Source: Myxococcales bacterium (GTDB taxonomy: Bacteria > Myxococcota > UBA727 > JABDBI01). From it: a DNA stretch of 64,000 nucleotides. The stretch lies in contig JAHFEF010000009.1 in assembly GCA_023248545.1 (NCBI GenBank), positions 1 to 64,000 on the forward strand, read 5' to 3'. Positions 24,877 to 59,092 of the stretch are shown here, piece by piece. Position 1 is the first letter of the stretch. Each line of letters begins with the position of its first letter. A program made the translations under genes and the position numbers. The notes under the pieces are model-generated. The model was not told the origin of the DNA. It saw nothing but the letters and a program-made list of their open reading frames with translations, and searched no databases.

Positions 24877-27392
24877 GGTTTATTGGGTTCCACTTGAATG
24901 GGCGCTGGTTCTGGAACTTGCGGCGGCGGACGATCTGTCACAATGGTCTCCGTGACGGGCGGTTGTTCAGGACTTGTTTTGTCTGCATCGCTCTCGTCTG
25001 AATCGGTCGGCTCCAGGGTCTGAACCTTATGTTTATCGACATCGTCATGTTCAGGAGACTTGAAGACGGTCTCTCCGGGCAACCCAGGACCCCCGTTTTC
25101 GGTCTTTTGCATCTCATACTGAACTTGGTCAATCAGGCGACCGAGTGGCCCTGATTTTTTGTCATAGTCGATATAGGGATCGAACTTGGTAATTTTGTCG
25201 CCAAAATAAAGTTTCGAAAACTCTTCGCGTTCCTTGGCTTTGCGCTCATAGATTTTTCTTAAATCACCCTCGTTACGAACCACATAGGGTGTCAGAATAA
25301 GCATGAGGTTTTTCTTGATTTTTACTTTACTGGTCGTCTTAAACAGATGCCCTAACAGGGGGATATCACCCAACCATGGAATCTTGCCTTCGGTCGTCTT
25401 GTAAGTCTCACCAATCAACCCACCCAGTACAACCGTCTGCTGATCTCTAGATGAAACAGTCGTCTTAGCAGTTTTCGTCGTAAACTTTGGATAGTCCACA
25501 TTATTTAACCTAATATTTTCACCCACATCCTGTATGTCCTGCTCGATTTCGAGGCGAACCTGATTGTCATCATTCACATGCGGCGTCAACGTAAACTTGA
25601 GCTTGGGTTCCTGATACTGGACATTCTGCAATGGAATCCCAATTCCGGCCGAACCAGTACCTAGCCCAACTGTCGATACACTGCCCAGCGTCGGAATTCT
25701 TTCACCCACTGACATCTCAGCCTTCTCATTATCCAATGTCATCAACGATGGCGTTGAAAGAATATCTACATTTGAATAGGTCTGAATAATATTTAAAATG
25801 GCGCCTATACCAGGTACATTGATTGTGGTGCCATTCAACGTAAGCGGTTGATTGGGACCAATAAAACCAATGGTATCTAAAAATGGCGCTAATCCCGCGG
25901 CAGCCACACCAGCACTATTGCCGCTGGCCAACGCCGTGCCAATTTTACCAAACACATCGGTGGCCAAACCCTTTCCGGCTGGGTTCGCCAAGATCATCGT
26001 TGAACCTTTGCCTAACACGTCCGGAATCCCCCCAAACGCTCCCAACCCAAAGTTATTTCTATCATCCAAGCTGATTTCCATGATCGCTGCCTCGACATAA
26101 ACTTGCGTGCGTTTCTTATCAAGCTTGGCAATCACTTGCAGCAATGCTTTATAGTCTCTGGGGCTTGCAACAGACACCAACGAATTAGTTGCTTCGTCGG
26201 CAGTGACTTTGATATCACCTTCAAACATGCTGTCGCCACGGGCATAGACACCCGGTGTCCCGCTGTTGGATCTCCCTGATTTGAGGCCCTGGACCAACGT
26301 CGACAGCGTGGTGGCAATCTTCTTAGAATCACCATGCTTGAGATAATAGACATAGATCTGGCCCTGCGTACCTGCCCCCGAAGACGGCACATCCAATACG
26401 TCGATCATCTCTTTGATGCGATCAAAAGCTCGGTCTGAAGCAATGACAATTAATTTATTGGTGCGCTCATCGGCAATCATTTTTTGTAGTTTGAAATTCT
26501 CAGGGTTTCCTCGAGCTCCTGGAAAGTCATCATACGGAGAACGCGACGATGAGGGTGCTGATGAGCCTGATCTGCCATTCAACGACGTGAAAATATCGTT
26601 TAACTTGGTCTGAATCTGAACCGCGTCGGCATGCACCAAGTCAACAATGTGAATGCGATTGGCAGCACCCGAAATATCGACTTTGCTCAAAATACTCATG
26701 ATGCGACGGATGTTGGACGAACCATCCGTAATCACCAAAAACGTCTCGCCAACAACGATCACATCGCCCACACGACTCACGAGGCCCTTCACCAAAGATT
26801 GCCCAACTTCTTTCTGGAGATGCTTCAAGTCATACAAATAAGTGACCATGCTTTCATCTTGAGGCAGAACCTCTTTTTCGTCGACCACTTGGATCGGCTG
26901 CCTGGGAGAATCCACTCGTTTGATGATCTTATAGTAATCGCCCGTTTTAAATAAACTGAGATCATTGGCCTCAAGCGTAGACTGGAAAGCCTGCCAAGCT
27001 TGTTTGATCGTAATTGGCGTTCGCGAAATAATCGAAATTTCTTGGGATGGCTTCACGCTGCTGGCAATAATAAAATTGCTGCACGTGAGTCGACTGATCT
27101 GGTCTACCAAATCGGATAACTTAGCTTTGTCTAAGTTCCAGGGGAACTTGCCTTTGGGCTTGACACACTTCGCAGGCATCACCTTCGTGATGTCACTGCC
27201 GCCGCTAGGCATGGAAGCCGATCGTGGTGGTGGTGGTGGTGCTGGTGGCGCCTGCTTCGATCCGTGAGCTGGATCATCGCCACCTCGCAAGGGCGACAGT
27301 GGCGGCTCTTCATCCGGTAAACCTTCTAAATGCTGAGCAACCAGCGCCGGGTGGACCAAAAGCAATAACAATAACAAAGAAAACTTATGCAT
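24873..27392 (-). CDS. gspD: Type II secretion outer-membrane secretin GspD
   Basis: 839 residues. A signal peptide (LLLLLLLVHPALVAQ) is followed by a Pro-rich stretch and then the N0-N1-N2-N3 domains (residues about 85-420) and the secretin barrel (about 430-700) with the hallmark VPGIGAILNI and VVLGGLIGE then IPWLGDIPLLGHLFK. The C-terminal tail of about 110 residues is long, acidic and Pro-rich (TDRPPPQVPEPAPIQVEPN); it may bind a pilotin or remain periplasmic. It forms the outer-membrane channel of the T2SS. Confidence 0.97.
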   Translation of the reverse strand: MHKFSLLLLLLLVHPALVAQHLEGLPDEEPPLSPLRGGDDPAHGSKQAPPAPPPPPRSASMPSGGSDITKVMPAKCVKPKGKFPWNLDKAKLSDLVDQISRLTCSNFIIASSVKPSQEISIISRTPITIKQAWQAFQSTLEANDLSLFKTGDYYKIIKRVDSPRQPIQVVDEKEVLPQDESMVTYLYDLKHLQKEVGQSLVKGLVSRVGDVIVVGETFLVITDGSSNIRRIMSILSKVDISGAANRIHIVDLVHADAVQIQTKLNDIFTSLNGRSGSSAPSSSRSPYDDFPGARGNPENFKLQKMIADERTNKLIVIASDRAFDRIKEMIDVLDVPSSGAGTQGQIYVYYLKHGDSKKIATTLSTLVQGLKSGRSNSGTPGVYARGDSMFEGDIKVTADEATNSLVSVASPRDYKALLQVIAKLDKKRTQVYVEAAIMEISLDDRNNFGLGAFGGIPDVLGKGSTMILANPAGKGLATDVFGKIGTALASGNSAGVAAAGLAPFLDTIGFIGPNQPLTLNGTTINVPGIGAILNIIQTYSNVDILSTPSLMTLDNEKAEMSVGERIPTLGSVSTVGLGTGSAGIGIPLQNVQYQEPKLKFTLTPHVNDDNQVRLEIEQDIQDVGENIRLNNVDYPKFTTKTAKTTVSSRDQQTVVLGGLIGETYKTTEGKIPWLGDIPLLGHLFKTTSKVKIKKNLMLILTPYVVRNEGDLRKIYERKAKEREEFSKLYFGDKITKFDPYIDYDKKSGPLGRLIDQVQYEMQKTENGGPGLPGETVFKSPEHDDVDKHKVQTLEPTDSDESDADKTSPEQPPVTETIVTDRPPPQVPEPAPIQVEPNKP

Positions 27393-41383: not shown

Positions 41384-41412
41384 ATAATAGCACAAATGTA
41401 GCACTAATTCAA
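41384..41412 (-). promoter_or_regulatory. mazEF-type promoter with direct-repeat operator
   Basis: Minus strand: -35 TTGAAT at 41412-41407, a 17-base spacer, -10 TATTAT at 41389-41384, then 6 bases to the ATG. Two GTGCTA direct repeats 11 bases apart (one helical turn) at 41388-41404 overlap the promoter. The -35 box lies inside the last codons of the Hint gene. Confidence 0.7.
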
Positions 41413-42221
41413 CGGCTCAAACCGAACCATCTCAACCAGCCAAGCAGTGACAGGTCAGTCTCCGTGGGTGATTTTGAATCCAGAAATTTTCGCCCAAGAG
41501 CCTGTCGCTTGAGATAGAAATACCAGGAAGCGGCCACAGGGCTATTGGTATGGGCAAAGCAACTGGCTTTGACTTTTTGTGTTCCCACAGCCAAGGTCCC
41601 GCTCGCTGTCAGCGGCGCATAGACTCCTTCCGTATCGACTTCCATGATCATCCCAACTTTTATGCTCTTGCCTGTTTCGGCGTGAATCAAAGATTGGCCT
41701 AGGTCGATATCGCTGGCGAACTGTGACCCCATTCCATCGACAAACAAAATATGGTCCGGAGAAACGCGTAAAAACGGGGCGTTATCATCTTCACTGCTAT
41801 AAAACTCAAGCATACGAGACTTCTGCTGCGCATCCGCATGCAGGTAGCCCAGAAATTCAGTTCGTTGACCGTCACCGTCTAGCACAAAATCCCCGGGGCT
41901 CAGTTGAGTAATCGCCACAGGATTGGTTTCACCATCCGCACTCACCCGATACACCATCGTATCTTTCGAAAAACAGGATGTAGATTCACAGTGACCCGCG
42001 AATTGGGTGAAAGTAAGATACTGAGTGTTATTGCCAAGTGACGTCACTATCCCACCCGTCGGGTATTGCTTACTGCAATCGCTGCTATCTGTAACCACAG
42101 TACAAGTAAAATTAGTTCCACCCCGCTCATTGGTGCGGATTATCCCTGCCGCGCAATAATTGTAATTAGCCAATGCCGGCAAACTCAAAACCAAAATAAG
42201 AGAAGCAACCAACAATTTCAT
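41409..42221 (-). CDS. Secreted Hedgehog-type Hint domain protein
   Basis: 270 residues with GGAGG 5 bases upstream. Residues 1-18 are a signal peptide (cleavage after LALA or PALA). A small domain of about 64 residues with four Cys (23, 40, 49, 78) follows. From Cys83 the sequence matches the Hedgehog-type Hint fold: CFSKDTMVY, LSPGDFVL, the block with SPDH (His157) and LF, and GVYAPLTASGTLAV then KASCFA with Cys221. In Hedgehog proteins this domain cleaves itself at the Cys and transfers the released N-terminal part to a nucleophile. The 49 residues after Cys221 resemble the start of a lipid-attaching tail only loosely. Downstream of amiC by 48 bases. Confidence 0.85.
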   Translation of the reverse strand: MKLLVASLILVLSLPALANYNYCAAGIIRTNERGGTNFTCTVVTDSSDCSKQYPTGGIVTSLGNNTQYLTFTQFAGHCESTSCFSKDTMVYRVSADGETNPVAITQLSPGDFVLDGDGQRTEFLGYLHADAQQKSRMLEFYSSEDDNAPFLRVSPDHILFVDGMGSQFASDIDLGQSLIHAETGKSIKVGMIMEVDTEGVYAPLTASGTLAVGTQKVKASCFAHTNSPVAASWYFYLKRQALGRKFLDSKSPTETDLSLLGWLRWFGLSR

Positions 42222-42269
42222 CGAAACCTCCGTTAGGTCAACAAACTAAAGGAGTGAATGATTCCCGGT

Positions 42270-43322: not shown

Positions 43323-43351
43323 AGTATGATCAAATTTTCAAAAAATCGCAA
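43323..43351 (-). promoter_or_regulatory. amiC promoter
   Basis: Minus strand: -35 TTGCGA at 43351-43346, a 17-base spacer, -10 CATACT at 43328-43323, then 6 bases to the ATG (leaderless). In the duplicate copy at 44117-44273 the corresponding boxes read TTGTGA and CACACT with an 18-base spacer, so only this copy looks functional. Confidence 0.55.
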
Positions 43352-43429
43352 TGCTCCTCACAGAATCTGTCAGTAATATCGCGTTTGGAGGCCACGGCGT
43401 TGTTCGTTTCGTGCCGTTTGTTTTGCCAG
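43351..43429 (+). pseudogene. Truncated copy of the rlmD 5' end
   Basis: ATG at 43351 opens MLLTESVSNIAFGGHGVVR, nearly identical to the rlmD N-terminus (MLITESVSN at 44177). Six residues are missing, then FVPFVLP, after which homology ends and the frame runs into unrelated sequence opposite the membrane-protein gene. It is a remnant, not a working gene. Confidence 0.85.
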
Positions 43430-43437
43430 TGGATTAT

Positions 43438-44016
43438 CTACAATGCAATAGCAGCGATATAAAGTCCTGGCACAACCCAACCTGCAGCCACAGATGCAAG
43501 ACCGATACCAAATGCAGCCTGCAAATTGGGTTCAGTGCTTCCGTATACCGGTGCTGTGGCATTTTGGAAAATATAGTAGTGGTTATCTTCTTTGGCATAG
43601 GCGACAATGCCCGCCACACCTGCGATCAATGATGAGAGAGCACCAGTGACTGCAACGGTCCCCGCCACTATTGCTGGACGTGTATGCCAATGATCAGGCA
43701 ACTCCCTAATAGCAAAGATTCCAGCCAAAGCAGAGACTGCAGTTAATCCAGAAGCCATTCCGAAAGTTACCTTGCTACACATCAAACTGTTGATGATACG
43801 GTGATATTCATTATAGTTTGGATCGTCATATTGTAACACGTGGTCTTGTGCTTGTTTCGATGTATAGGCACCCGCCGCGTACAGAGCCACCATCACAGGT
43901 GCCAGAAGTGTGGCAGCGATGGCAGCTTTTTTATTACGATAATAATTAGCCGACGCTGGCATGCTGAATATCAGCAACCCAAAAACAAGTGATATACTTT
44001 TGAACAGTCTAAACAC
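43438..44016 (-). CDS. Membrane protein of unknown function (insertion cargo)
   Basis: 192 residues from a GTG at 44016, with GGAGG 7 bases upstream. A signal-like N-terminal helix (ISLVFGLLIFSMPASANYY) is followed by about four further membrane helices (AAIAATLLAPVMVALYAAG, FGMASGLTAVSALAGIFAI, AIVAGTVAVTGALSSLIAG, AAFGIGLASVAAGWVV). The even spacing and Ala/Gly content suggest a compact polytopic inner-membrane protein. Not recognised. It lies exactly between the two copies of the amiC/rlmD duplication, so it looks like inserted cargo. Confidence 0.65.
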   Translation of the reverse strand: MFRLFKSISLVFGLLIFSMPASANYYRNKKAAIAATLLAPVMVALYAAGAYTSKQAQDHVLQYDDPNYNEYHRIINSLMCSKVTFGMASGLTAVSALAGIFAIRELPDHWHTRPAIVAGTVAVTGALSSLIAGVAGIVAYAKEDNHYYIFQNATAPVYGSTEPNLQAAFGIGLASVAAGWVVPGLYIAAIAL

Positions 44017-44116: not shown

Positions 44117-44273
44117 CTATCTAGCCCACAAAAGCAAACATGCTAGAAGTGTGATCAAATTTTCAAAAAAATCACAATGCTCATCACAGAATCTGTCAGT
44201 AATATCGCGTTTGGAGGCCACGGCGTTGTTCGTCATGAAGGCAAAGTTGTCTTCGTGCCGTTTGTTTTACCAG
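44117..44273. repeat. Duplicated amiC/rlmD start region, copy B
   Basis: Second copy. Here the rlmD start is intact and continues into the full gene, while the amiC part is decayed: about 17 bases of the amiC 5' coding region are missing and only a few codons remain. The two copies differ at scattered positions, so the duplication is not recent. Confidence 0.9.
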
Positions 44274-45184
44274 GCGAAAAAGTTGAATTTGAAATCACAC
44301 AGTCCAAAAAATCACACGCTTTCGGGCGTGCTCTGCGCATACTGAACGCTCACCCCGACAGAATCACCCCCAAGTGTGAATATTACGGCCGCTGCGGTGG
44401 ATGCCAGTTACAGCATGCCAGCTATGATTTGCAACTCAAACTCAAACAGCAATTTATTGAAGAGGCTTTGACGCGCATTGGCAAGCTGCAGAATATTCTT
44501 GTCAGCCCGATTATTGGCACTAAGCACCAGTGGGCTTATCGCCGACGCATCAAGCTACACAAACAAGGCGATCAACTCGGATTTATAGGCGTAGACAACA
44601 GCAGCTTTGTGCCGGTCACACACTGTGAGATTGATTCAGGCCAATCGCTCGATTTAGATCCGGATATTTTTGTGCAAGCACACCCTGAACAAAGCGAAAA
44701 GCTATATGGCGACTTGCTGAACCAGATTAAGCAGCTTGGTACCCCCAAAATACTAGACTTATATTGCGGCATGGGCATTCTGACAGCCAGGTTGGCCGCG
44801 CTCGGCTGCGAAGTCACAGGCATTGAATTAAATGCCAAGGCCATCGCCTGGGCACAAAAAAATCATGCGCACCCTATTCGCTGGGTAGTCGCAGACGTTG
44901 CCAAAGTCATGGCTGGTTATTTAAAACGAGATCGCCCTGCAGTCGTCCTGGTTAACCCGCCTAGAACCGGCCTAAACCCAGAAGTCACAAACGCGCTGGT
45001 CACATACAGGCCCAAACATATTTTTTATACTTCGTGTATGCCAGCAACTTTGGCGCGCGATTTGAAAATCTTGGTAGAAGCAGGTTATGTTATCGAACAG
45101 TGCCAGCCGTATGATCTGTTTCCGCAGACCACCCATGTTGAAACTGTAGTGACTCTATGCTTGAACTCATCCAAGACTTCCTGA
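44177..45184 (+). CDS. rlmD: 23S rRNA (uracil-C5)-methyltransferase, RlmD/TrmA type
   Basis: 335 residues. An N-terminal TRAM-like beta segment (residues 1-55), an iron-sulfur Cys cluster (CEYYGRCGGC near residues 73-82, with a later Cys in THCEID), and the SAM-binding methyltransferase domain (DLYCGMGILTARLA near residue 195; NPPRTGLNP near residue 258; the catalytic Cys in YTSCMPATLARDL near residue 283). The usual E. coli protein is about 430 residues; here the middle linker region is shortened. RlmC or TrmA activity cannot be separated by sequence alone. Overlaps xerC by 28 bases. Confidence 0.85.
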   Translation: MLITESVSNIAFGGHGVVRHEGKVVFVPFVLPGEKVEFEITQSKKSHAFGRALRILNAHPDRITPKCEYYGRCGGCQLQHASYDLQLKLKQQFIEEALTRIGKLQNILVSPIIGTKHQWAYRRRIKLHKQGDQLGFIGVDNSSFVPVTHCEIDSGQSLDLDPDIFVQAHPEQSEKLYGDLLNQIKQLGTPKILDLYCGMGILTARLAALGCEVTGIELNAKAIAWAQKNHAHPIRWVVADVAKVMAGYLKRDRPAVVLVNPPRTGLNPEVTNALVTYRPKHIFYTSCMPATLARDLKILVEAGYVIEQCQPYDLFPQTTHVETVVTLCLNSSKTS

Positions 45185-46024: not shown

Positions 46025-46912
46025 ATGAACAAATATGAGATCAATAATATTGCTGGAAAAGTGAATCAATCGGGTGTTTTTACGGGTGTCGAAAAGTCAT
46101 CTGGGAAACGCATCGCGATCAAACTATTTTCAGGCGTCACAGAGTCACAAAAAGAAAATCTACTTCGTGATGCAAAAATTTTACAAAGCTTTTCGCACCC
46201 CCATATTGTCAAAATCTTGGACTCTGGAGTGGATGACGAAAACAATGTGTTTTACACGATGGAATATCTAGAAGGCACCCCGCTCTATGAGGTTGTTCCC
46301 AAAGATCGAGGCATGAGCTTTGAAGAGAGCTGGCCACTGATTGAAAAACCGGCTGGCGCGCTATCAGCCGTACATGAAATGGGCGTTCTCCACTTAGATC
46401 TGAAGCCTGGCAATATCCTGATGGTTTCAGGTGAACCTAAAATTATTGATTTTGGAATATTAACCCCGCAAAAGCCTGGTACTTTTAGGGGAACACCAGG
46501 TTATATCGCGCCAGAAGTGATTCTAGGCAGTAAACCCACGCTCCAATCGGACATCTATAGTTTTGGAGCCTTGTTGGCCTTCATATGGACCGGCCACAAA
46601 CTGTATCATGGGGATTCGGCCGAGAGCACACTCGCTCACCAACTGAAAAATCTGGGCACCCAGCTGGGCAATCCAGATTTGAGTCGCGTAATTGCACGCG
46701 CTACCAAGCAAGATGCTACTAAGCGTTATGCTAATTTGAGCGAAATGCTTAAGCCACTCAGTCTTTATCACCATGAGCAAGAGTATCGAGCTGAAGACCC
46801 AACGGAAGATCCCACCCAAACCAAATGGGGCCACTGGATCATTGGAAGCATTGTGATCACGTTGGTTTGTATTGCTGTGGGGATTTATTACTCGCTGCTG
46901 CATTCGATTTAG
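46025..46912 (+). CDS. Hanks-type Ser/Thr kinase with C-terminal TM helix
   Basis: 295 residues. Kinase domain residues 1-250 with Lys in RIAIKLF, HLDLKPGN (the usual HRD reads HLD), DFG in IIDFGILT and APE in YIAPEVI. The glycine loop is degenerate and the helix-C Glu appears as Asp (LLRDAKIL), so catalysis may be weak. A transmembrane helix near residues 270-290 (WIIGSIVITLVCIAVGIYYSL) leaves only a short tail, so there is no extracellular sensor. An AT-rich -10-like TATATT ends 6 bases before the ATG, but the -35 is poor. Followed by an ankyrin gene. Confidence 0.85.
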   Translation: MNKYEINNIAGKVNQSGVFTGVEKSSGKRIAIKLFSGVTESQKENLLRDAKILQSFSHPHIVKILDSGVDDENNVFYTMEYLEGTPLYEVVPKDRGMSFEESWPLIEKPAGALSAVHEMGVLHLDLKPGNILMVSGEPKIIDFGILTPQKPGTFRGTPGYIAPEVILGSKPTLQSDIYSFGALLAFIWTGHKLYHGDSAESTLAHQLKNLGTQLGNPDLSRVIARATKQDATKRYANLSEMLKPLSLYHHEQEYRAEDPTEDPTQTKWGHWIIGSIVITLVCIAVGIYYSLLHSI

Positions 46913-46921
46913 GGAATCGGG

Positions 46922-46940
46922 AAGGCACTTCAGTGCTTTT
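46922..46940 (+). terminator. Weak hairpin-T element after the kinase gene
   Basis: AAGGCACT, TC and AGTGCTTTT form a short stem followed by four T residues, 10 bases after the kinase stop. It is too short to be a strong terminator. Confidence 0.35.
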
Positions 46941-46962
46941 AAATGGGCATGGATAACTGCCC

Positions 46963-48576
46963 GTGACCCGAGTAACACAAGCACCCTACAGACCTCTTCT
47001 TGAACTCCGTGCGACAACCCCCACAGAACTTGAGATTCCATGGCTCGACCGGGATGTGGGTATTCAAACAGCCCCAGAGCCTCCTCCAAAAACCCGTCTG
47101 CAAACTATTTTAGAGCGCCCTAAATACCAAAACAAAGCGCTCACCCCATCAGATATCCGGGCCGTTCAACAGGAGCTCAACAAGGACCGCCCATTCAGAC
47201 GCCGATTCCCAAACTTTTCAGCAACTGTATTTGGCCTCGATGAGTTGGCACGCAGGCTCTACCATTCAGGCCGTTATCTGGATGCCGTCCGGCGTGGCGA
47301 AAATCCACCTGGCCCTGTTCCAACGGTTTTTGCTGAACAGGATGTCATGGCCAAAGGAGGTGAACAAGCCAGCACAGCACTCATCTTCGCTGCCAGGCAT
47401 GGCTTTACTGAGATAGCCCTCGCTCTGATAGATAGAATGACCCCAGCCGAACTCAGTTACCAGAACAAAGGAGGCTATTCAGCACTCACGTTTGCTGCCC
47501 GCGAAGGCCATCGCGCAATTTTCGAAGCCATCACAAAACGACTGTTGGCGCACCAGGTTTTTGCCCAAGTTCGGCCCGTGCTCAACTCGCAGTCCACGCA
47601 AGATTTGCTCAAAGCATATGTCGCAGCCGACCCCGATCGCGCCTACCCCTATTTTGTCAAGCCTAGCCCGGATCGAATCCAATTGCCTGAAACAGAACAC
47701 ATCCCGCCTATTTCAGACGAAGGAAAAACACAGATTTACGGCGCCCAAAACACAGAGTTGCTTGCCACCTATATTCTGGAACATACCCAATTTTTACCCA
47801 AAAAAGAACGTCAAAAATTAGAAGAAGTCCTAGGCAACGTCGAATCCCAAGAGCTGATTACATCGGTACCCAAAGATCCGGAAAAACGCGCCATTTTTTA
47901 TGCTTGCATGCGACAAAACCTAGAACATGTCTCGCTGAAGGTGGTCGATCCCGAAATTCCTGAAAAACTCAAAAAATCGGCTTTGTTTGGCATCTGGGAC
48001 AGCGCAGGAACTTGCGGAACCCAACAGTATCAACAAGTATCGCTGGCTCGAAAGTTGCTCACAGGGGATACTTCGAGCAATATAGAACAAACCCCCCTCG
48101 AAAAATTAGAGCATGTTTTGTTTCAGCTCCGCACTCAGATTATTAACCAAATTTCAGCACAATTAATGACCAAGAATCCACGTTGGAATCACGTTCATAT
48201 CTACAACGCCATTCTATCAAAAATTGGGAAAGAGGCCGGTGTCGCTGAGCCGATGGTCGACTATGCTGAAGACCCCCTCATGCCCAAGCTAGACAAAGAA
48301 GCGCTGCTCAAAGAATTTCAGAAGCACTACGAACCCTGCAAAATTATTGAAACACTGATCTCACAAATACCCGGCGTTTTGAGCGAGCTCATCGCGGGGC
48401 AAGAACAACCCGATCTGTTTTACAAAAACGTCGAGGACTCTGAATCACCGGATTATTATGCGCTGACCGATACCGCCATGCCTTCTTTGCTGATATCGCT
48501 GGGTATTTTTGAACTTCAAGAAATGCCAGGGTATGAAATGCCGCCGTTTTTGAGGCAGTTTGAAACCTCACCCTAA
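46963..48576 (+). CDS. Ankyrin-repeat protein of unknown function
   Basis: 537 residues from a GTG at 46963 that directly follows a hairpin (GGGCA...TGCCC at 46945-46962). No Shine-Dalgarno sequence. Two ankyrin-like repeats lie near residues 135-195 (TALIFAARHGFTEIALALI and SALTFAAREGHRAIFEAIT). The remainder is a long helical region without recognised domains, with a Pro-rich N-terminus (APEPPPKT). No signal peptide is seen, so it is either cytoplasmic or secreted by a signal-less route. Adjacent to a kinase, a regulatory or host-interaction role is possible but not shown. Its stop codon lies inside the REP-like element. Confidence 0.7.
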   Translation: MTRVTQAPYRPLLELRATTPTELEIPWLDRDVGIQTAPEPPPKTRLQTILERPKYQNKALTPSDIRAVQQELNKDRPFRRRFPNFSATVFGLDELARRLYHSGRYLDAVRRGENPPGPVPTVFAEQDVMAKGGEQASTALIFAARHGFTEIALALIDRMTPAELSYQNKGGYSALTFAAREGHRAIFEAITKRLLAHQVFAQVRPVLNSQSTQDLLKAYVAADPDRAYPYFVKPSPDRIQLPETEHIPPISDEGKTQIYGAQNTELLATYILEHTQFLPKKERQKLEEVLGNVESQELITSVPKDPEKRAIFYACMRQNLEHVSLKVVDPEIPEKLKKSALFGIWDSAGTCGTQQYQQVSLARKLLTGDTSSNIEQTPLEKLEHVLFQLRTQIINQISAQLMTKNPRWNHVHIYNAILSKIGKEAGVAEPMVDYAEDPLMPKLDKEALLKEFQKHYEPCKIIETLISQIPGVLSELIAGQEQPDLFYKNVEDSESPDYYALTDTAMPSLLISLGIFELQEMPGYEMPPFLRQFETSP

Positions 48577-50186: not shown

Positions 50187-51884
50187 ATGTCGCTTCGCGC
50201 CCAAAACACCATTACCGTTGCCAGGGACCTAGCCAAAGCTGGCCAAATTTCTTCGGAGCAATTAGCCAACGCATTAGAAGCGCAGAAAAAAGAAGATAAA
50301 GACATCGGTGAATTTCTCGTTGAACAGGGGATCGTCACAGAAAAAGACTTCAATGACCGATTGGCTTCAAAAGCCGGCGTGCAGGCTATCTCTCTTGAAA
50401 ACTGGGTACCAGAACCCAATATTCTTAAAGCCATACCCCCGGATCAAGCCAGCAAGTGGAAGATTTTTCCGATCCAAGAAAAAAACGAAAAATTAACCGT
50501 CGCCATGGCCGATCCTTTTGATTTGGCAACCCTCGATGAAGCCCGCGGTGTCTTGGAGCGTGATTTAGATTGTGTTCTAGCGTCGAAAAAAGAAATCGAA
50601 GCGGCGATCTTAAAGCACTATGGTGAGGCCAAAAAAGCCAAGTCCGCCCCTCCCACTGGCTCAGTGGAAGTCATCAGTTACGATGTTCAACTCGGGCAAA
50701 CCAAAGTTGACGCTAAAACAGCCAATGCGTTGGCAGCCCAAGTGGTCTCATCTGTGGACCAACTGCTGCAGTCTGCCTTGCATGAGCGCGCCAGTGATAT
50801 CCACATGGAACCCACACGTGAGGGACTTAAAATCCGTTTTCGAATCGACGGCGTGTTGGAACCCTTTTTGATTTTGCCCCCGAACATGCAAGAAGCCATT
50901 CTTTCCAGAATTAAAATCATGGGCAGCATGGACGTCGCCGAACATCGAATCACCCAAGATGGCCGAACCAGACTTCGTATTGCCGACCGAGAATTTGACA
51001 TTCGAATTGCCACCTACCCAACCATGTTCGGTGAAGCTGCAGCCATTCGAATACTCACCAGAGACGACGTGATCACCCTAGACAGTCTCGGGTTTCTAGG
51101 AAAAGACCGCGATGTTTTTGAGAAGCTCATTCACCGGCCTCACGGTATTTTACTGGTTACTGGACCGACGGGTTCGGGCAAAACCACCACGCTCTATGCC
51201 GCATTGCAAAAAATCGACCGCGCTAAATGCCACGTTTTGTCAGTTGAAGACCCCATCGAAAATGAAATCGAAGGGGTTGATCAAACTCAGATCAATGCGA
51301 AAGCGGGTGTCACTTTTCCGACCGTCCTGCGTGCCATGCTCCGGCAGGATCCAGACGTCATCATGGTGGGCGAAATTCGTGACAAAGAAACCGCCGAAAT
51401 TTCACTCGGTGCCGCTATGACCGGCCACTTGGTGCTCTCGACACTGCACACGAACACGGCCATCGGGGCCATCGCGCGTCTCAATGATTTGGGCATCGAA
51501 ACTTATTTGATTTCTTCGACGCTATTAGGCGTCATCGCCCAACGATTGGTCCGCCGCATCTGTCAATCTTGCAAAGAACTTGTCACCGTTCCGCCAGAGC
51601 TCATCCGTGAGTTGGGCCCCAAAGGAGCCAGCATCAAGACCTACCATGGGCGTGGCTGTCAGGAATGCGAAGGCAGAGGCTTCAAAGGCCGCTTGGGCAT
51701 CTTTGAATTGGTCGAAATTGATGAAGAGTTTCGGGTTCTCGTAAACAACCATGCGCCCGATATTCGCCTTAAAGAAAAGGCCGCAGCAGCTGGCTTTCAC
51801 TCCATTTTAGAAGATGGAATCGAAAAAATAAACAATGGAATTACCACCATCGAAGAAGTCTTAAGAGTCTGTGGAGGCGAGTGA
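50187..51884 (+). CDS. Type IV pilus assembly ATPase (PilB/MshE type)
   Basis: 565 residues. N-terminal MshEN-type domain (residues about 1-150), ATPase core with Walker A GPTGSGKTTTLY near residue 325 and a tetracysteine zinc motif (CQSC then CQEC near residues 455-490). It powers pilus extension. It resembles GspE in the window but has its own platform protein next to it. No PilT-like retraction ATPase is visible. Confidence 0.95.
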   Translation: MSLRAQNTITVARDLAKAGQISSEQLANALEAQKKEDKDIGEFLVEQGIVTEKDFNDRLASKAGVQAISLENWVPEPNILKAIPPDQASKWKIFPIQEKNEKLTVAMADPFDLATLDEARGVLERDLDCVLASKKEIEAAILKHYGEAKKAKSAPPTGSVEVISYDVQLGQTKVDAKTANALAAQVVSSVDQLLQSALHERASDIHMEPTREGLKIRFRIDGVLEPFLILPPNMQEAILSRIKIMGSMDVAEHRITQDGRTRLRIADREFDIRIATYPTMFGEAAAIRILTRDDVITLDSLGFLGKDRDVFEKLIHRPHGILLVTGPTGSGKTTTLYAALQKIDRAKCHVLSVEDPIENEIEGVDQTQINAKAGVTFPTVLRAMLRQDPDVIMVGEIRDKETAEISLGAAMTGHLVLSTLHTNTAIGAIARLNDLGIETYLISSTLLGVIAQRLVRRICQSCKELVTVPPELIRELGPKGASIKTYHGRGCQECEGRGFKGRLGIFELVEIDEEFRVLVNNHAPDIRLKEKAAAAGFHSILEDGIEKINNGITTIEEVLRVCGGE

Positions 51885-51887
51885 CCA

Positions 51888-53099
51888 ATGCCCACTTTTA
51901 CGTTCAAAGCGCGAAACCAATCTGGCGAAGCTGTCGTGGGAGAGCTAGACGGCGACAGTGTTAACTCGATCAAAGAAGTGATCTCGGCCAAGGGCCTATT
52001 TCCAACCAATGTCCAAATCAAGGCCCTAGAAGTCTCGTCTTTCTCACTGTTTCAGAAAAAGCCAACCCCAAAAGATATTGCCAGCATGACCCGGCAGTTC
52101 CAAGCCATGTTCGCCGTCGGAACCCCTATGGATCGAATTTTATCGATCTTGGCGCGCCAACTGCAAAACCCCTCTCTCAAACAAGCCATGATTCGCATTC
52201 ATAAAGACGTCGCCTCAGGAACACGACTTTCCGTCGCGTTTCGGGCCTTCCCACAGTATTTTAGCCCTCTTTATATCAGCATGATTGAAGTCGGTGAAAC
52301 CGGGGGTGTGCTCGACAAAACCCTGCGAGAGATGGCCCTGATTCTCCAGAAAGAAACTGAGATCACTTCCAAAGTCAAATCTGCCATGCTGTACCCCAAA
52401 ATAGTCTTGTTCGTCCTGGGAGCAGTGATGTGGGGCATGTTGGCATTTGTGGTTCCGCCTTTTAAAACATTTTATTCACGTCACGGCGCAGAACTACCAA
52501 CGCCTACTAAAATCGTTCTCGCCATGAGCGAGCTAGCGACATCTTATTGGTATATTGCTTTATTCGGTGGAATTGCCGGTTACTGGCTTTGGAAACGCTT
52601 TTCCAAAACGGCTCTTGGGCAAGATTGGATTTCCCGCATCGCCTTCAAATTGCCCGTGTTTGGAAGACTCAACCGGCTCACAGCCAATGCTCGATTTGGG
52701 CACCTGCTATCCGGTCTGTACCGAGCCGGTGTACCCATTGCACACGCACTGGCTGTAGTAGCCAATACCATGAGCAATATTCACTATGCCAATGATGTCC
52801 TGGCCGTCAAAAAAGGCCTAGAACAGGGGAATTCGCTGTCCAAATGCATGGAACAAACAAAATATTTTGAACCGATGGTGCAGGAAGCTGTGTCAGTGGG
52901 TGAAAAAACAGGACAATTGGATGTTCTATTGGATGCCACAGCCACTTTTTATGATGCCGAAATAGACGATATTTTGAAAAACCTAGCAACCCTTATCGAG
53001 CCGATTTTACTTGTGTTTTTGTTCTCCGGAGTCACCCTACTGGCGCTAGCGATATACATGCCCATTTGGAATCTTTCCAAAGTAATTCTCCCAAAATAG
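51888..53099 (+). CDS. Type IV pilus platform protein (PilC/MshG type)
   Basis: 403 residues with the GspF-domain duplication (around residues 65-190 and 270-395) and three membrane helices near residues 170, 220 and 375. N-terminus MPTFTFKARNQSGE. It is the inner-membrane partner of the assembly ATPase, 3 bases downstream of it. Confidence 0.95.
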   Translation: MPTFTFKARNQSGEAVVGELDGDSVNSIKEVISAKGLFPTNVQIKALEVSSFSLFQKKPTPKDIASMTRQFQAMFAVGTPMDRILSILARQLQNPSLKQAMIRIHKDVASGTRLSVAFRAFPQYFSPLYISMIEVGETGGVLDKTLREMALILQKETEITSKVKSAMLYPKIVLFVLGAVMWGMLAFVVPPFKTFYSRHGAELPTPTKIVLAMSELATSYWYIALFGGIAGYWLWKRFSKTALGQDWISRIAFKLPVFGRLNRLTANARFGHLLSGLYRAGVPIAHALAVVANTMSNIHYANDVLAVKKGLEQGNSLSKCMEQTKYFEPMVQEAVSVGEKTGQLDVLLDATATFYDAEIDDILKNLATLIEPILLVFLFSGVTLLALAIYMPIWNLSKVILPK

Positions 53100-53131
53100 G
53101 TATATAGTGAAGAAAGAAGGGAGGGGTTTTC

Positions 53132-53566
53132 ATGTTATTCAGAGGGTTCACCCTCGTAGAGCTTTTGCTGGTGGTGGCTTTATTGGGGATACTGGCTGTC
53201 AGTGCATTGCCTGGGCTTTTTTCCACCAGTTTGACCAGTGCCCGATCAGCTTCCATGAATGCCACCATAGGTGCCGTGCAATCTGGGATCGCGACCTATG
53301 CAGCCACCCAGGCGGCCGGTGGAAATAATATTTCTTACCCAGCCAGCTTGGATGGTGCTGCGATTAACTCTACGGCCAGTCCAACCGTGCCCTTGTTTGG
53401 GACCGTGCTGCAAAATGGCGTGACCGCTCAATGGTTCAAGGTATCCAATACCTGCTATGTGTATGACACCAATGGCAGTGGCGCAAAAGATGCCAACCCA
53501 ACGGATACGTATGTCCAATACAGCGCAAACACAGGCACATTCGGCATCATCGTAGCTGGGTGTTAA
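53132..53566 (+). CDS. Major-type pilin 1
   Basis: 144 residues. The leader MLFRG is very short, with cleavage before FTLVELLLVVALLGILAVS and Glu5 present. The C-terminus has a Cys pair (CYVYDTNGSGAKD and final AGC), the disulfide loop of type IV pilins. AGGGAGGGG precedes the ATG. It is similar in design to the next gene (MshB-like position). Confidence 0.92.
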   Translation: MLFRGFTLVELLLVVALLGILAVSALPGLFSTSLTSARSASMNATIGAVQSGIATYAATQAAGGNNISYPASLDGAAINSTASPTVPLFGTVLQNGVTAQWFKVSNTCYVYDTNGSGAKDANPTDTYVQYSANTGTFGIIVAGC

Positions 53567-53581
53567 TATTTTAACTAATTT

Positions 53582-53610
53582 TTGCATTCCAAAAATATTA
53601 GGAGTAGAAT
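53582..53610 (+). promoter_or_regulatory. Promoter for pilin 2
   Basis: -35 TTGCAT at 53582-53587, a 17-base spacer and -10 TAGAAT at 53605-53610, followed by a 20-base leader with GGAGGGG. A conventional, strong signal for a highly expressed pilin. Confidence 0.55.
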
Positions 53611-53630
53611 GCAGGCTGGAGGGGATAGAA

Positions 53631-54077
53631 ATGGTTAAAGTAAAAGGCCTGTATGGCTTTACGCTCATCGAACTCGTACTCGTCATCGCAATCTTAGGAA
53701 TCTTGGCAGTGGTGGCTTTGCCGACACTGTTTAACACAACACTCACATCAGCCCGAGGCAACGCGGCCGCAATGACCGCCGCTTCAGTCCAAGAAGGATT
53801 GGGCATCTACGTGGGTGACCAAGTCGCTCAGGGCAAGCCTAAATCTTACCCAGCTGCGCTGGATGCCGTTGCGGATGGAACACTTGCCTCACCTGCAAAT
53901 GTTCTTTTCAAGACCATCTTGGAGGAAGGCGTGACGTCGAGCTGGATTAAAAAGGCTGGCACCTGCTACGTCTATGATAAGGACGGCAGCGGAACCGTTG
54001 GAACCACAGCACAAGACGATTTCTATGCTTATGATTCCGCGGCCGGGTCATTCTTGTTCATCGCTGCTGGATGCTAG
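53631..54077 (+). CDS. Major-type pilin 2
   Basis: 148 residues. The leader ends YG, then FTLIELVLVIAILGILAVVA with Glu5. The C-terminal loop has CYVYDKDGSGTVG and a final AGC. It has its own promoter and a strong Shine-Dalgarno sequence, so it is probably the main pilus subunit (MshA-like position). It shares with pilin 1 the CYVYD..GSG motif, which points to a gene duplication. Confidence 0.92.
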   Translation: MVKVKGLYGFTLIELVLVIAILGILAVVALPTLFNTTLTSARGNAAAMTAASVQEGLGIYVGDQVAQGKPKSYPAALDAVADGTLASPANVLFKTILEEGVTSSWIKKAGTCYVYDKDGSGTVGTTAQDDFYAYDSAAGSFLFIAAGC

Positions 54078-54088
54078 TCATGTAGGGT

Positions 54089-54535
54089 ATGCGAGGGTTT
54101 ACCGCAGTTGAGATCCTCTTAGTCACCTCATTGTTGGGGATTTTGGCTCTCGCTGTGGTTTTCCTTCTGCCCCCGGTCGCGGCAGTGACCCTGGAGGCTG
54201 CCGCCCACCAGGTCCGATCTGATATTGAATTCGCGCAACAAAACGCCATGATCACCGGCCAAACTTCGGGTGTGCAGTTTGTCAGCGCTGGTTCCTACAC
54301 GGTCTATCAGGGCACGACTGCAACCCCGTTAATGAGTCCGCTGACAGGCCAAAGCATGGTGATGACGCTGAGCGCAAGCTATGTTGGAACAGCTATCTCT
54401 GGCAACTACACGGTTGAATTTGACAGCATGGGCAAGCCCAGCACCGGCGGAGGAGGAAGCGTGAACCTCTCCAATGGGGGCGTCACCAGGACCATCGCCG
54501 TGACGGCCAATACCGGGAGGGTCACGATACAATGA
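54089..54535 (+). CDS. Minor pilin, FimT/GspH-like (MshC-like)
   Basis: 148 residues. MRG then FTAVEILLVTSLLGILALAVV with Glu5. A beta-rich C-terminal domain follows, with a Gly-rich GGGGS segment near residue 120. Overlaps the next gene by 4 bases as ATGA. Minor pilins prime pilus assembly. Confidence 0.82.
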   Translation: MRGFTAVEILLVTSLLGILALAVVFLLPPVAAVTLEAAAHQVRSDIEFAQQNAMITGQTSGVQFVSAGSYTVYQGTTATPLMSPLTGQSMVMTLSASYVGTAISGNYTVEFDSMGKPSTGGGGSVNLSNGGVTRTIAVTANTGRVTIQ

Positions 54536-54984
54536 CCCGAATTTTAGGATTCTCATTGTTAGACGCCCTGCTGGGCCTGGCGCTTCTCAGCGTCGGCCTC
54601 ATTGGCATGTTATACGCTTTTCAGGGTTCGGTCAGCTCATCGGGCTTGGCAGACCAAAGCATTATTGCCACCAATTTAGCGCGGGAAACCCTGGAAAAAA
54701 TCGTCGCGCAACGGGACTGCCAACTGGCGGGTTGCGGCTATGCATCGACGCTGACGTCTATTAATACCAATCATACTTACAATCAAAATCCCGTCGCTGG
54801 CTTCTCGGGCTACGCGATCACGGCTGTTGGACTAGAAGTAGACCCCGACTCTGACGGTGGTACAGATGATTTCTTAGATGCCAAATCAGGTTCTGGCTAT
54901 GCGCGCGTGACCGTGACAGTCACATGGAATAGCGCCGCCAATTCGATTTCGTTGGTGACACTGTTGGGGAGCTATGCGCCATGA
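54532..54984 (+). CDS. Minor pilin, PilV-like (MshD-like)
   Basis: 150 residues. The leader MTRILG is followed by FSLLDALLGLALLSVGLIG: position 5 is Asp instead of the near-invariant Glu. Cys-x5-Cys (CQLAGC, near residue 60) may form a disulfide. It overlaps both neighbours by 4 bases. Confidence 0.8.
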   Translation: MTRILGFSLLDALLGLALLSVGLIGMLYAFQGSVSSSGLADQSIIATNLARETLEKIVAQRDCQLAGCGYASTLTSINTNHTYNQNPVAGFSGYAITAVGLEVDPDSDGGTDDFLDAKSGSGYARVTVTVTWNSAANSISLVTLLGSYAP

Positions 54985-55484
54985 AAAAATTCAAAGCGTT
55001 TACACTCCTGGAGCTTCTATTGGCAATCACCATGCTGGCCGTCCTAGGCCTGGTAGTCGGTCCCGTTTTGGGAAACGCCGTGCTCGGTTCCAGCTTGGTT
55101 TTATCGAGACACGAGGCTCTTGCAGGAGCTCGAAACGGCATGGACCGCATGGTCCGCGAAATCAGACTGATCCCTAATACCGGCGTTCTAGCCAGCATCA
55201 CGGCCACCAACCTGCAATTCCAATATCCCGCTGGGACAGCCATTACGTACTCTCAGAGTGGTACAAACTTGCTTCGCAATTCGGATATTCTCGTCGACCA
55301 CGTCAGCGCTCTGGCGTTTACCTATTATAACGAGTCTGGTGCTACCACAGCAACGGCCGCGAACGTCCGCAGCATCGGCATTCAACTGAGTGTATTGGCC
55401 ACAGATGGCTCTACATTGACTCTGCGAACCCGGGTATTTTTAAGAAATACAGGACATGATTATGGAACTTTTACATCGCCTTAA
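54981..55484 (+). CDS. Minor pilin, PilW-like (MshO-like)
   Basis: 167 residues. MKKFKA then FTLLELLLAITMLAVLGLVV with Glu5, but the residue before the cleavage site is Ala rather than Gly. A beta-rich C-terminal domain. It overlaps the next gene by 23 bases. Confidence 0.8.
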   Translation: MKKFKAFTLLELLLAITMLAVLGLVVGPVLGNAVLGSSLVLSRHEALAGARNGMDRMVREIRLIPNTGVLASITATNLQFQYPAGTAITYSQSGTNLLRNSDILVDHVSALAFTYYNESGATTATAANVRSIGIQLSVLATDGSTLTLRTRVFLRNTGHDYGTFTSP

Positions 55485-56436
55485 GGGCTTCACAGTCGCC
55501 AGCGTCTTAATTGCCCTCAGCATTTTGGCTGCTCTGTCGGCGTCTGTCTTAGTAACCGTGGCGACGAATCAATCCACGCGCACCAACCAGCTCCACACCG
55601 ACCAGGCCTTTTATTCATCTCAAGCCGCGTTTGAGTTTGCCATGCAGCAGATCAACGTCGACGGCAACCCAAACCCAATTCCCACGCGCTATTTTATGGG
55701 ACAGCCGTTTGATATTTCTCGAACTTGCAGTAAAATCAACGTGACAACCACGGCGGGAACAGCCACGAGTACCTTCAGCATTGGAGATCCTGGTCAACTG
55801 TGTGCGGTTTCTGGCAGTGCAACAGTCACCTCCAATTCAATTGACTTCACAGGCCAGAGTATCCCAAAAGATGATTGGATTTGGTTCAACTCGAGCTTTA
55901 CGGTTTCTGGACTCGGTCAGACCCTCACCCATGTTTACGTAGAAACAGCCAATGTTCTTTTTACAGCCAATTCGGTCAACTACAACGTCGTCGTGCCCAG
56001 TGCGATAATTACATTCGACCCGGATGCCACCTGCGTATCGACAGAGTACATAGCCAACCAATGGCGAACCACGGTCCCAATTGCACAAAGTGGCAATATA
56101 CTTCTCTCAGGAGTTGGATTTTTGGTACCAGCTAACTTGCCTGGCAGCCTTAGAAATGTCACGTGGAATGCTGTCATTGCAGCTGACAAACCTGGAATAT
56201 CTTTCACCTGGCAATGGGGCGCAGCCATCTACACAACCAGCTTATCCAATTTGAATGGGATTGGCGTGAAAGCCAGTGATAGCAACACGTGTAACGACAA
56301 CAGCGGTTACAATGTAGCGACTCCAGAAAATGTGATTTCATACCATGTAAACGGTGGTACCGGGAGTGGCAATAGTTATAACGGTGAACGAAGTGGAACC
56401 ACTGGCTCAATAGCACCCTGCTTATCAGGCTGCTAA
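55462..56436 (+). CDS. Large minor pilin, PilX/GspK-like (MshP-like)
   Basis: 324 residues from ATG at 55462 with AGGA 7 bases upstream; an ATG at 55456 is possible. KG then FTVASVLIALSILAALSASV: Glu5 is replaced by Ser, as in GspK and PilX tip proteins. The long C-terminal domain has about six Cys and is Thr/Ser/Asn-rich. Last gene of the pilin block, followed by an 83-base AT-rich gap. Confidence 0.8.
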   Translation: MELLHRLKGFTVASVLIALSILAALSASVLVTVATNQSTRTNQLHTDQAFYSSQAAFEFAMQQINVDGNPNPIPTRYFMGQPFDISRTCSKINVTTTAGTATSTFSIGDPGQLCAVSGSATVTSNSIDFTGQSIPKDDWIWFNSSFTVSGLGQTLTHVYVETANVLFTANSVNYNVVVPSAIITFDPDATCVSTEYIANQWRTTVPIAQSGNILLSGVGFLVPANLPGSLRNVTWNAVIAADKPGISFTWQWGAAIYTTSLSNLNGIGVKASDSNTCNDNSGYNVATPENVISYHVNGGTGSGNSYNGERSGTTGSIAPCLSGC

Positions 56437-56519
56437 CCCATTGATTTTAAACAAATTCGTAAAAATTTAATCCAATAAATCAATCAATTACATAAGATAT
56501 GTTATAAAATATATTCAGA

Positions 56520-57158
56520 ATGTTACTGAAATTAAAAGCATTAAATTTAAGCCGTCGAAGCAAGATACTGCTCGGGATTCTGATGGCCGTAGTGATTGGC
56601 ATGGCTGGCCACCGGTTCGCAAAATCGACGTTTTTCCAAAAACCTGCAGCTGCAGTACCAGCCCCCAAAGCAACCCGTCAACCTCAGGAAGACCTGGACA
56701 CCGCGCTTCGTAAAGCCGAAGAACTGGTGTCCCAAAACCGACTGGATGAAGCCCTGCAGACCTATCAAGCCGCTTTGACCGCAAACCCAAACAATGCTCG
56801 GCTTCACAACGACATCGGGTATATTTTACTTGAAAAAAATCTTCTGGTAGACAGCGAAAAACACCTAATTTTAGCTGCCGAACTGAATCCAGACTGCTCT
56901 GAATGCGCCAATAACCTAGGAATCTTGCGAACTCGCCAGGGCAAGACCCTGGAGGCCGAAAAGCACTTCAAAGAAGCGATTATTCTCAACGAAACCTACC
57001 CGGAGCCTTATTACAACCTAGGCGTGCTGTACGAAAAAAATGGCGACACAGGAAACGCGGTAGTTTTATATAATGATTTTTTGCGTCATTCAACAGACAA
57101 GAAATCAATCGCATTTCTCCAAGTTGAAAATCGCATTTTGGTACTAGGAGGAAAATAA
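56520..57158 (+). CDS. TPR protein with N-terminal TM helix (MshN-like)
   Basis: 212 residues. A membrane helix near residues 13-33 (SKILLGILMAVVIGMAG), a Pro/Ala linker and then three to four TPR units (EELVSQNRLDEALQTYQAAL; ILLEKNLLVDSEKHLILAAE; ILRTRQGKTLEAEKHFKEAI; VLYEKNGDTGNAVVLYNDFL). It resembles MSHA-locus MshN. It starts a second pilus transcript after an AT-rich gap and abuts the next gene. Confidence 0.78.
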   Translation: MLLKLKALNLSRRSKILLGILMAVVIGMAGHRFAKSTFFQKPAAAVPAPKATRQPQEDLDTALRKAEELVSQNRLDEALQTYQAALTANPNNARLHNDIGYILLEKNLLVDSEKHLILAAELNPDCSECANNLGILRTRQGKTLEAEKHFKEAIILNETYPEPYYNLGVLYEKNGDTGNAVVLYNDFLRHSTDKKSIAFLQVENRILVLGGK

Positions 57159-58040
57159 ATGTCAAAATGCTCAGTGGGCATCGATGTAACGGCAAAAGAC
57201 GTCAAAATGGTCTGCCTGACCCAAAAGGCCGGGCAGGTTCATTTGGCTGACTATGCTGTGGCGCCACTGACCGACCCAGAAAGTGTCAAAAAAGCGCTTT
57301 TACACCCAGCCATACACCGGGGAACCACTCGATACTCGATTCACGATGGAACGATCAAAATTCGAAAGATTACCGTGCCAATTGTCCCTAAGCAGGAACT
57401 CGACGAAGTGATTCGATGGGCCCTGAAAGATGCCACAAAAACCAGTGTCGAAGGACACACCATTCGCTATTATCCTGTAGGTGGGGCTGGCGACAAGCAA
57501 CAGTCATATCTTGCCATGGCCGTCGAGCAAAAAAAGATACAAGATCATGTGATTGAGCTGCAGAAGATCGGAGTCGGGCAACCTCAATTGATTGAGCCAA
57601 GCGCTCAGGCCCTGGCCAACTGTGTGGGCCATAATTATGAGCTCAAGCTTACAGATCGCTGTGCAGCGATCCACTTGGATCCTTATTTGGCCTACTACAC
57701 AGTCGTATCCCCAGAGGGGCTTCTATTTTATAGAACTTTTTCCCGTATAGATGGGAACACCCGCACAGATTTAAGTCAATTTTTCTCGAAACTGACCGTT
57801 GAGATTCAATACTCCTGCGAGAATTATCTCGCTCAATTTCCGAATCAACCAATTACCCAAGCAATCCTGTCGGGAGAAGAAGCCGCATTGCCGGGACTCA
57901 AAGCACACATTGAAGAAACTCTTCAAGTGCCCACACAACAGTTAGAAGTATTTAAAAAAATAGAGCTCAGCGAGCAACAACGCGCTGGTTTGGGAGACAG
58001 CGCCATTTCGCATTGCATTGCAGTTGGGCTGGCTCTGTAG
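57159..58040 (+). CDS. PilM-like actin-fold pilus protein
   Basis: 293 residues with SVGIDVTAKDVKMVCLTQ at the N-terminus, the PilM/GspL actin-like cytoplasmic fold. GGAGG precedes the ATG. It should bind the N-terminal tail of the PilN-like protein encoded next and connect to the assembly ATPase. Lacks a transmembrane helix, as expected for PilM. Confidence 0.82.
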   Translation: MSKCSVGIDVTAKDVKMVCLTQKAGQVHLADYAVAPLTDPESVKKALLHPAIHRGTTRYSIHDGTIKIRKITVPIVPKQELDEVIRWALKDATKTSVEGHTIRYYPVGGAGDKQQSYLAMAVEQKKIQDHVIELQKIGVGQPQLIEPSAQALANCVGHNYELKLTDRCAAIHLDPYLAYYTVVSPEGLLFYRTFSRIDGNTRTDLSQFFSKLTVEIQYSCENYLAQFPNQPITQAILSGEEAALPGLKAHIEETLQVPTQQLEVFKKIELSEQQRAGLGDSAISHCIAVGLAL

Positions 58041-58049
58041 GAAATTGAT

Positions 58050-58550
58050 ATGGCAGCGAAACACGTCAATCTATTAGATATCTCATCTGCTGGACCCAGC
58101 CAGACTGAGCTGAACTATCTATCGATCGTCATTGTATCGGCTGTCGTTATTGTCGGATGTCTTGGGTTTGAATTTTGGCAAAGACACAATCTCAAATTGG
58201 CCCAAGGCCAGCTCGAGACCGTCACCACCGAAGTCACCAAACTCAATGAGTCGATCGGTTCAAAAACGAAGAAAGGATCCAATCAAGATATCCTATCGAA
58301 GCTCAATCATCCCATCTTCTGGTCGAACCTACTGAAAGAAGTCACGCACGTCATTCCACCCGCGATCCAATTGTCACAAATCACCGGCGCACTCACCAAC
58401 AATCGCAGTCTTGTTGTGATGGGAAGCAGCTCCGGTTTGCCCGCCATTTTTGCACTCAAAAATAGCTTACTCGACATTCCTGAATGCAGCCAAGTATCTG
58501 TCACGAATCTCAACCGATCAACCTTTCAAATTGAGTGTCAAATCCGATGA
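58050..58550 (+). CDS. PilN-like pilus protein
   Basis: 166 residues: KHVNLLDIS (the PilN NLL motif that binds PilM), a membrane helix near residues 24-42 (LSIVIVSAVVIVGCLGF), a coiled coil and a ferredoxin-like periplasmic domain. Overlaps the PilO-like gene as ATGA. Confidence 0.85.
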   Translation: MAAKHVNLLDISSAGPSQTELNYLSIVIVSAVVIVGCLGFEFWQRHNLKLAQGQLETVTTEVTKLNESIGSKTKKGSNQDILSKLNHPIFWSNLLKEVTHVIPPAIQLSQITGALTNNRSLVVMGSSSGLPAIFALKNSLLDIPECSQVSVTNLNRSTFQIECQIR

Positions 58551-59092
58551 ACTTAAATCTAACCCAACTTGATTTAAAGCAAAAACTCAACCAACGAGAG
58601 ACGGTTATCTTCCTCGCAACCCTCTTGGTGGCATTTCTAGGGTTTTATAAATCCTGCGTGGTTCCAAACCAACAGGCCCTCAGCGATACGAAAGAGCAAA
58701 CTCAAACTTTTGAAACTGAGCGAAACCGCTTAATCAAACAGGTGGCTGCTCAAAAAGAACCTAAACCACAAGATACCAGTCACAATCCATGGGTGGGAAC
58801 ACCCGATGCCCTCAATGAAACCATGGACTCATTGGGAAGACCGCTTCAATTAAAAGGCATTAGCCTGGTGGACCTGCAGCTCTCTGACATCCAGAAAAAA
58901 GAAGATCCCTTCAACCAAAAAGGCATTGTCCTGACGCTGTCTGGAAATTTCCAGGCCATTGGGCAATATATTGAGCATTTGGAGAACCTTCCGATACCGT
59001 TACTCATAGAGTCTTTTTCGATTGCACCTGACGGCAACCAATTAAGCACTGTTGTTGTCAAAATCCAAGGTGGTTTTTATGTTTCTAAGTAA
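58547..59092 (+). CDS. PilO-like pilus protein
   Basis: 181 residues from ATG at 58547, overlapping the PilN-like gene stop as ATGA. A short tail, a membrane helix near residues 22-38 (TVIFLATLLVAFLGFYK), a coiled coil and a periplasmic beta domain. It pairs with the PilN-like protein. Overlaps the next gene by 14 bases. Confidence 0.85.
   Translation: MNLNLTQLDLKQKLNQRETVIFLATLLVAFLGFYKSCVVPNQQALSDTKEQTQTFETERNRLIKQVAAQKEPKPQDTSHNPWVGTPDALNETMDSLGRPLQLKGISLVDLQLSDIQKKEDPFNQKGIVLTLSGNFQAIGQYIEHLENLPIPLLIESFSIAPDGNQLSTVVVKIQGGFYVSK

Follow-up and report, generated by a model that had tools for sequence, protein, structure and literature searches.

Hog proteins, as described by Burglin in 2008 (PMC2362128), consist of a signal peptide, a variable Cys-containing N-terminus and the Hog domain, and they occur in protists, algae, mosses and nematodes. 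That survey found Hog in eukaryotes only, placed the bacterial Hint proteins in a separate and divergent subgroup, and inferred an ancestral eukaryotic Hog gene whose prior origin was left open. According to one account (PMC7242414), Hedgehog is singular in that the protein becomes covalently linked to cholesterol. Asp46 (Asp303 in Drosophila) is the general base of Hedgehog, which activates cholesterol. The D303A protein keeps the cleavage induced by DTT or thiols and loses full cholesterol transfer (PMC9163320). D303H (D46H), on the other hand, keeps structure, pKa and cholesterolysis and accepts non-native sterols far better, so that activity is retained and the acceptor range widened (PMC9163320, PMC8529194). 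Neither Asp46, a residue of the transfer step, nor the downstream Cys of Hedgehog has a direct counterpart in inteins (PMC8529194). In SHH an HWY motif in the second helix of the SRR is needed for cholesterol ligation (PMC7242414).

The bacterial Hh/DD-peptidase proteins of Roelink 2018 (PMC6027127) have likewise been named 'bacterial Hedgehog'. They resemble the N-terminal signalling domain, whereas the protein described here resembles the C-terminal processing domain, and the two are complementary halves. No report of a bacterial Hog was found in the literature searched, which was covered in part, and unpublished database entries may exist.

Gene and domain organization

The window, which is the whole stretch of 64,000 nucleotides that was analysed, comes from a Myxococcales bacterium. 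It contains at 41409..42221 a gene for a predicted secreted Hog-type precursor of 270 amino acids, identified by its open reading frame, its translation, its match to PF01079 and a homologue. The open reading frame agrees with the preliminary description and lies on the minus strand, as do all parts of the gene given below. A Shine-Dalgarno sequence, GGAGG (42227..42231), stands 5 nt before the ATG.

Residues 1-18 (42168..42221) were read by eye as a Sec signal peptide without a lipobox, with the predicted junction between LPALA and NYNYC. The following 64 residues (19-82; 41976..42167), with Cys at 23, 40, 49 and 78, form the N-terminal payload. Both the signal peptide and the four-Cys segment had been noted earlier and are present. 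The name of a miniature Hedgehog, which had been given to the protein, is not borne out, as residues 19-82 have no Pfam match and in particular none to the Hedge (HH_signal) domain. No paralogues of this N-terminal domain were found in the family genomes. The payload is followed by a Hedgehog-type Hint domain (residues 83-223; 41553..41975) and by a C-terminal tail (residues 224-270; 41412..41552).

With the eukaryotic Hog proteins this protein shares the signal peptide, a short lineage-specific Cys peptide, a Hint domain with motif J (ASC[FY]A) and the C-terminal tail. As judged from these parts it fits Burglin's description of Hog closely, yet it is in a bacterium. The match to Hedgehog architecture that had been proposed holds for the Hedgehog-type Hint and its complete catalytic set; it does not hold for the N-terminal Hedge domain, and the whole fits the broader group of eukaryotic Hog proteins.

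Among eight family genomes a homologue was found in one besides the window's own, and this genome belongs to another genus. The relative (P0002) is on contig JAESQZ010000144.1 of Deltaproteobacteria bacterium isolate NORP243 with bacterial genes around it, and it has the same order of parts, a PF01079 score of 65.7 bits and an identity of 33% in the genome search and 32% in the pair alignment. All statements on conservation compare these two sequences, which have 56 of 134 positions identical in the Hint domain, 12 of 44 in the tail (1 of 2000 shuffles was as good) and 11 of 58 in the payload (86 of 2000 shuffles were as good). The payload is fast-changing, with the processing unit kept.

Catalytic residues and proposed reaction

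Cys83 (41973..41975) aligns to Cys258 of Hedgehog and is Cys1 of the Hint domain, the predicted scissile bond being Ser82-Cys83. An SPDH sequence (Ser154-His157; 41751..41762) takes the place of the TxxH motif in the alignments, with Ser for Thr. Cys221 (41559..41561), within ASCFA, corresponds to the Cys of motif J (C400/C143 of Drosophila Hedgehog). Cys83, His157, Cys221 and the blocks GVYAPLTASGT and KASCFA, on which the preliminary description relied, are all at the places given there. It had not mentioned His128, Ser154 for Thr in TxxH, Ser82 for Gly at position -1 or the conserved two-helix tail.

His128 (41838..41840) occupies position 46 of the Hint domain, the general-base position held by Asp303 (D46) in Drosophila Hedgehog, in HMMER alignments to 6td6, 6tyy and SHH and in a MAFFT alignment. 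In both bacterial proteins position 46 is a natural His, and in the alignments it falls on the His that was introduced by engineering into 6TYY. A new feature of the bacterial Hogs, as read from their sequences, is that at the general-base site of Hedgehog they naturally have the very replacement made in that mutant. The retention of a base at this position is the best evidence in the sequence for transfer of the peptide to a hydroxyl, beyond cleavage, and argues for it. Because the position-46 His is kept and has no intein counterpart, the reaction is more readily understood as transfer to the hydroxyl of a small molecule than as splicing.

With the C-terminal domain of Drosophila Hh and SHH the protein shares Cys1, T/SxxH, a base at position 46, the motif-J Cys, APLTxxGT and the Hint fold. 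Unlike animal Hedgehog, it has no Hedge domain, its base is His and not Asp, its predicted cleavage site is Ser-Cys, or Ala-Cys in the relative, where Hedgehog has Gly-Cys, and its tail is shorter and without HWY.

We favour the reading, with a probability of about 0.55, that this is a bacterial Hog protein whose Hint domain would form a thioester and then, aided by His128, transfer the peptide to a small hydroxyl acceptor. The precursor would pass the inner membrane through Sec, as the signal peptide suggests, and would fold in the periplasm, where the short N-terminal peptide may be held by disulfides. The conserved residues suggest that the Ser82-Cys83 bond would be moved onto the thiol of Cys83 with the help of Ser154 and His157, giving the thioester. 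His128, at the site of Hedgehog Asp46, would activate the hydroxyl of a small acceptor, which probably resides in a membrane and would be delivered by the hydrophobic tail with its two helices. Esterified to the acceptor, the 64-residue peptide could then be released, either membrane-anchored or ready for export.

Acceptor and alternative outcomes

In the PF01079 family the C-terminal tail (SRR/ARR) has a helix-loop-helix. The tail of the present protein is a candidate acceptor-recognition region. It has 47 residues, fewer than the Hedgehog SRR, and two predicted helices (228-241 and 254-265) in low-confidence models, pLDDT in the helices being about 40-55. Inspection of residues 224-270 showed no HWY motif. 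Terpenoid cyclase (PF13243) had no match in the family genomes searched, including the 93%-complete genome of the bacterium itself, in which squalene epoxidase (PF08491) also had no match. A home-made sterol is probably not the acceptor; another membrane alcohol or a sterol from outside is the more likely acceptor, if there is one. The earlier suggestion of attachment to a lipid is plausible; the tail without HWY and the lack of sterol-making enzymes among those searched speak against it.

The same features would suit a self-cleaving propeptide, in which the Hog-type Hint forms its thioester and water serves as the acceptor. A free disulfide-bonded peptide would then be secreted and could act as a signal, a bacteriocin-like peptide or an adhesion peptide. 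The short tail, the missing HWY motif and the failure to find sterol-making genes agree with this, a small and fast-evolving Cys-rich payload suits a free secreted peptide, and the type II secretion cluster in the window (GspF, GspE and GspD at 21890-27392) could export a folded periplasmic product. Hydrolysis, however, needs neither His46, which is kept in both proteins, nor the tail, which is more conserved than the payload, and we regard this account as possible and somewhat doubtful.

A further reading, which is unlikely, is that bacteria have true Hogs which use the chemistry of Hedgehog, with a natural His as the base, to join a secreted peptide in ester linkage to an alcohol of the membrane. 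If it were true, a eukaryotic partner might even supply a sterol as the acceptor, the genome being reduced and without sterol genes of its own, and the eukaryotic Hog family would have a source or a sink in these bacteria.

A bacterial Hog is a missing comparison, being encoded by a single, intron-free and easily expressed gene with which the question of the acceptor could be asked outside animals, and its natural position-46 His tests whether evolution actually uses the engineered D46H state.

It could also be supposed that the Hint domain is decayed or structural, with cleavage lost, and the departures at Ser -1 and at Ser154 in TxxH would be consistent with decay. Against this, both proteins carry Cys1, His46, the His of TxxH and the Cys of motif J, although they are only 32-33% identical overall, and both genes have intact reading frames and good ribosome sites, which makes decay very unlikely.

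Type of the Hint domain

PF01079, the Hedgehog Hint module, was by far the best Pfam match, with 67.7 bits and E=1.5e-18 against a cut-off of 29.7 bits. No Hint_2, PT-HINT (PF07591), BIL or intein (PF14890) family appeared in the Pfam search of the protein at E<=1. When the two bacterial sequences were combined into a profile and this was compared with the PDB, solely Hedgehog chains fell below E=0.1 (6td6, 5e-14; 6tyy, 2e-12; 1at0, 6e-11; SHH, 2.8e-7). Profile search and structure comparison, which had been proposed as checks of the Hint assignment, both place the region within Hint. A model of the Hint domain plus tail (mean pLDDT 67, with the Hint part mostly at 65-90) had as its best Foldseek match 6TYY, the crystal structure of the Drosophila Hedgehog D46H Hint, with TM 0.64 by target length. 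1AT0 was also among the top structural matches, and it and the inteins were close behind 6TYY. The full-length model, with a mean pLDDT of 51, gave a similar but less clear picture. Sequence separates Hedgehog from intein, which fold alone cannot do.

Local-alignment z-scores of the Hint domain were 16.4 with Drosophila Hh and 12.9 with SHH, as against 0.1-1.9 with the pretoxin Hints that this genome encodes; the SHH sequence was entered by hand, and a C-terminal SHH fragment entered likewise matched PDB 7e2i except in a variable linker. A small Hint tree, drawn without protist Hogs and therefore giving no direction of transfer, put Hedgehog and the bacterial Hogs apart from PT-HINT and Hint_2; it had no firmly supported branch and was weakened by long branches. 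On these sequence comparisons the domain is assigned to the Hedgehog type and not to the intein, BIL or pretoxin types.

The genome of this bacterium also codes for two closely similar secreted proteins, at L042:640-1737 (-) and L045:1411-2505 (+), in which a PT-HINT domain is followed by a chitinase/lysozyme-like (GH19) domain. Their PT-HINT domains lack Cys1 and have a His-Asn end, and each gene is adjoined by a similar secreted gene. This suggests pretoxin-like release of a C-terminal cargo, with a polarity opposite to that of the Hog protein. Like these, the Hog protein is a secreted, stand-alone member of the Hint superfamily; unlike these, it has Cys1, no His-Asn end and no C-terminal cargo. 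The earlier view of a stand-alone gene, neither an intein nor a pretoxin insert, agrees with the different look of these proteins.

The presence of such proteins in the same genome, and the fact that inteins match the model as does the whole Hint fold, would be the grounds for supposing kinship with PT-HINT, BIL or intein proteins and the release or splicing of a C-terminal cargo. The Hint domain ends in ASCFAHTNS, without the His-Asn, +1 nucleophile and C-extein of an intein end, and at most 47 residues come after it, with neither a PF07591 match nor a C-terminal toxin domain. Together with the Pfam result and the low z-scores to the PT-HINTs of its own genome, this makes such a relationship highly improbable.

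A congener, G001, contains two further secreted proteins, at L005:1264-2022 (+) and L044:1300-2049 (-), with a Cys-containing and hydrophobic N-terminus and a Hint_2-like (PF13403) domain. They share with the Hog protein the signal peptide, an N-terminus of about 75 residues, Cys1 and the terminal Cys, and their similarity to it is weak (z 3.7-8.6). In contrast to it, they are below the PF01079 cut-off, lack YAPLT/ASCYA and have a gap at position 46. They perhaps represent an intermediate type.

Distribution and genomic setting

Profile searches found a Hog-type protein in 2 of 195 genomes of the phylum. One scan of a genome contig collection with narrow peptide patterns found only NORP243, and the narrowness of the patterns leaves room for Hog genes in further bacterial phyla, where they may occur. 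No relatives were found in viral contigs, phages or plasmids, and carriage by any of these was rejected on that ground. PADLOC showed no defence system, and PHROGs gave matches at chance level only. Neighbouring genes are not common to the two loci. In NORP243 two long secreted or membrane proteins with no confident family match (L034:2710-5295, -) adjoin the Hog gene.

The source assembly has 1.78 Mb. The gene has a GC of 0.486 and a GC3 of 0.494, both in line with the adjoining genes, whose GC3 is 0.40-0.58. A co-directional AMIN/Amidase_3 cell-wall amidase gene lies 48 bp upstream, and MazE/MazF and an HTH/HipA pair lie downstream. Type IV pilus genes are at 50187-60846 of the window, and scpA/scpB-like genes were identified by eye on the contig. 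The contig is plainly bacterial and the Hog open reading frame is a genuine bacterial gene. Eukaryotic DNA binned into the assembly, which might be thought of as Hog genes were described from eukaryotes (PMC2362128), is scarcely credible in view of the flanking bacterial genes, the GGAGG, the matching GC3, the lack of an intron and the diverged homologue amid bacterial genes in an independent assembly.

Other features were observed in the window. A 617-aa open reading frame at 1950-3803 (+) has APH phosphotransferase, GrpB and NUDIX matches in series, which is an unusual fusion. A small open reading frame at 43351-43632 (+) is a broken repeat of the N-terminus (MLxTESVSNIAFGGHGVVR...FVPFVLP) of an RNA-methyltransferase-like gene at 44177-45184 (+), which suggests a partial duplicate or remnant of that gene. 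At 46025-48576 (+) a Ser/Thr protein kinase is followed by an ankyrin-repeat protein, in a bacterium with a small genome.
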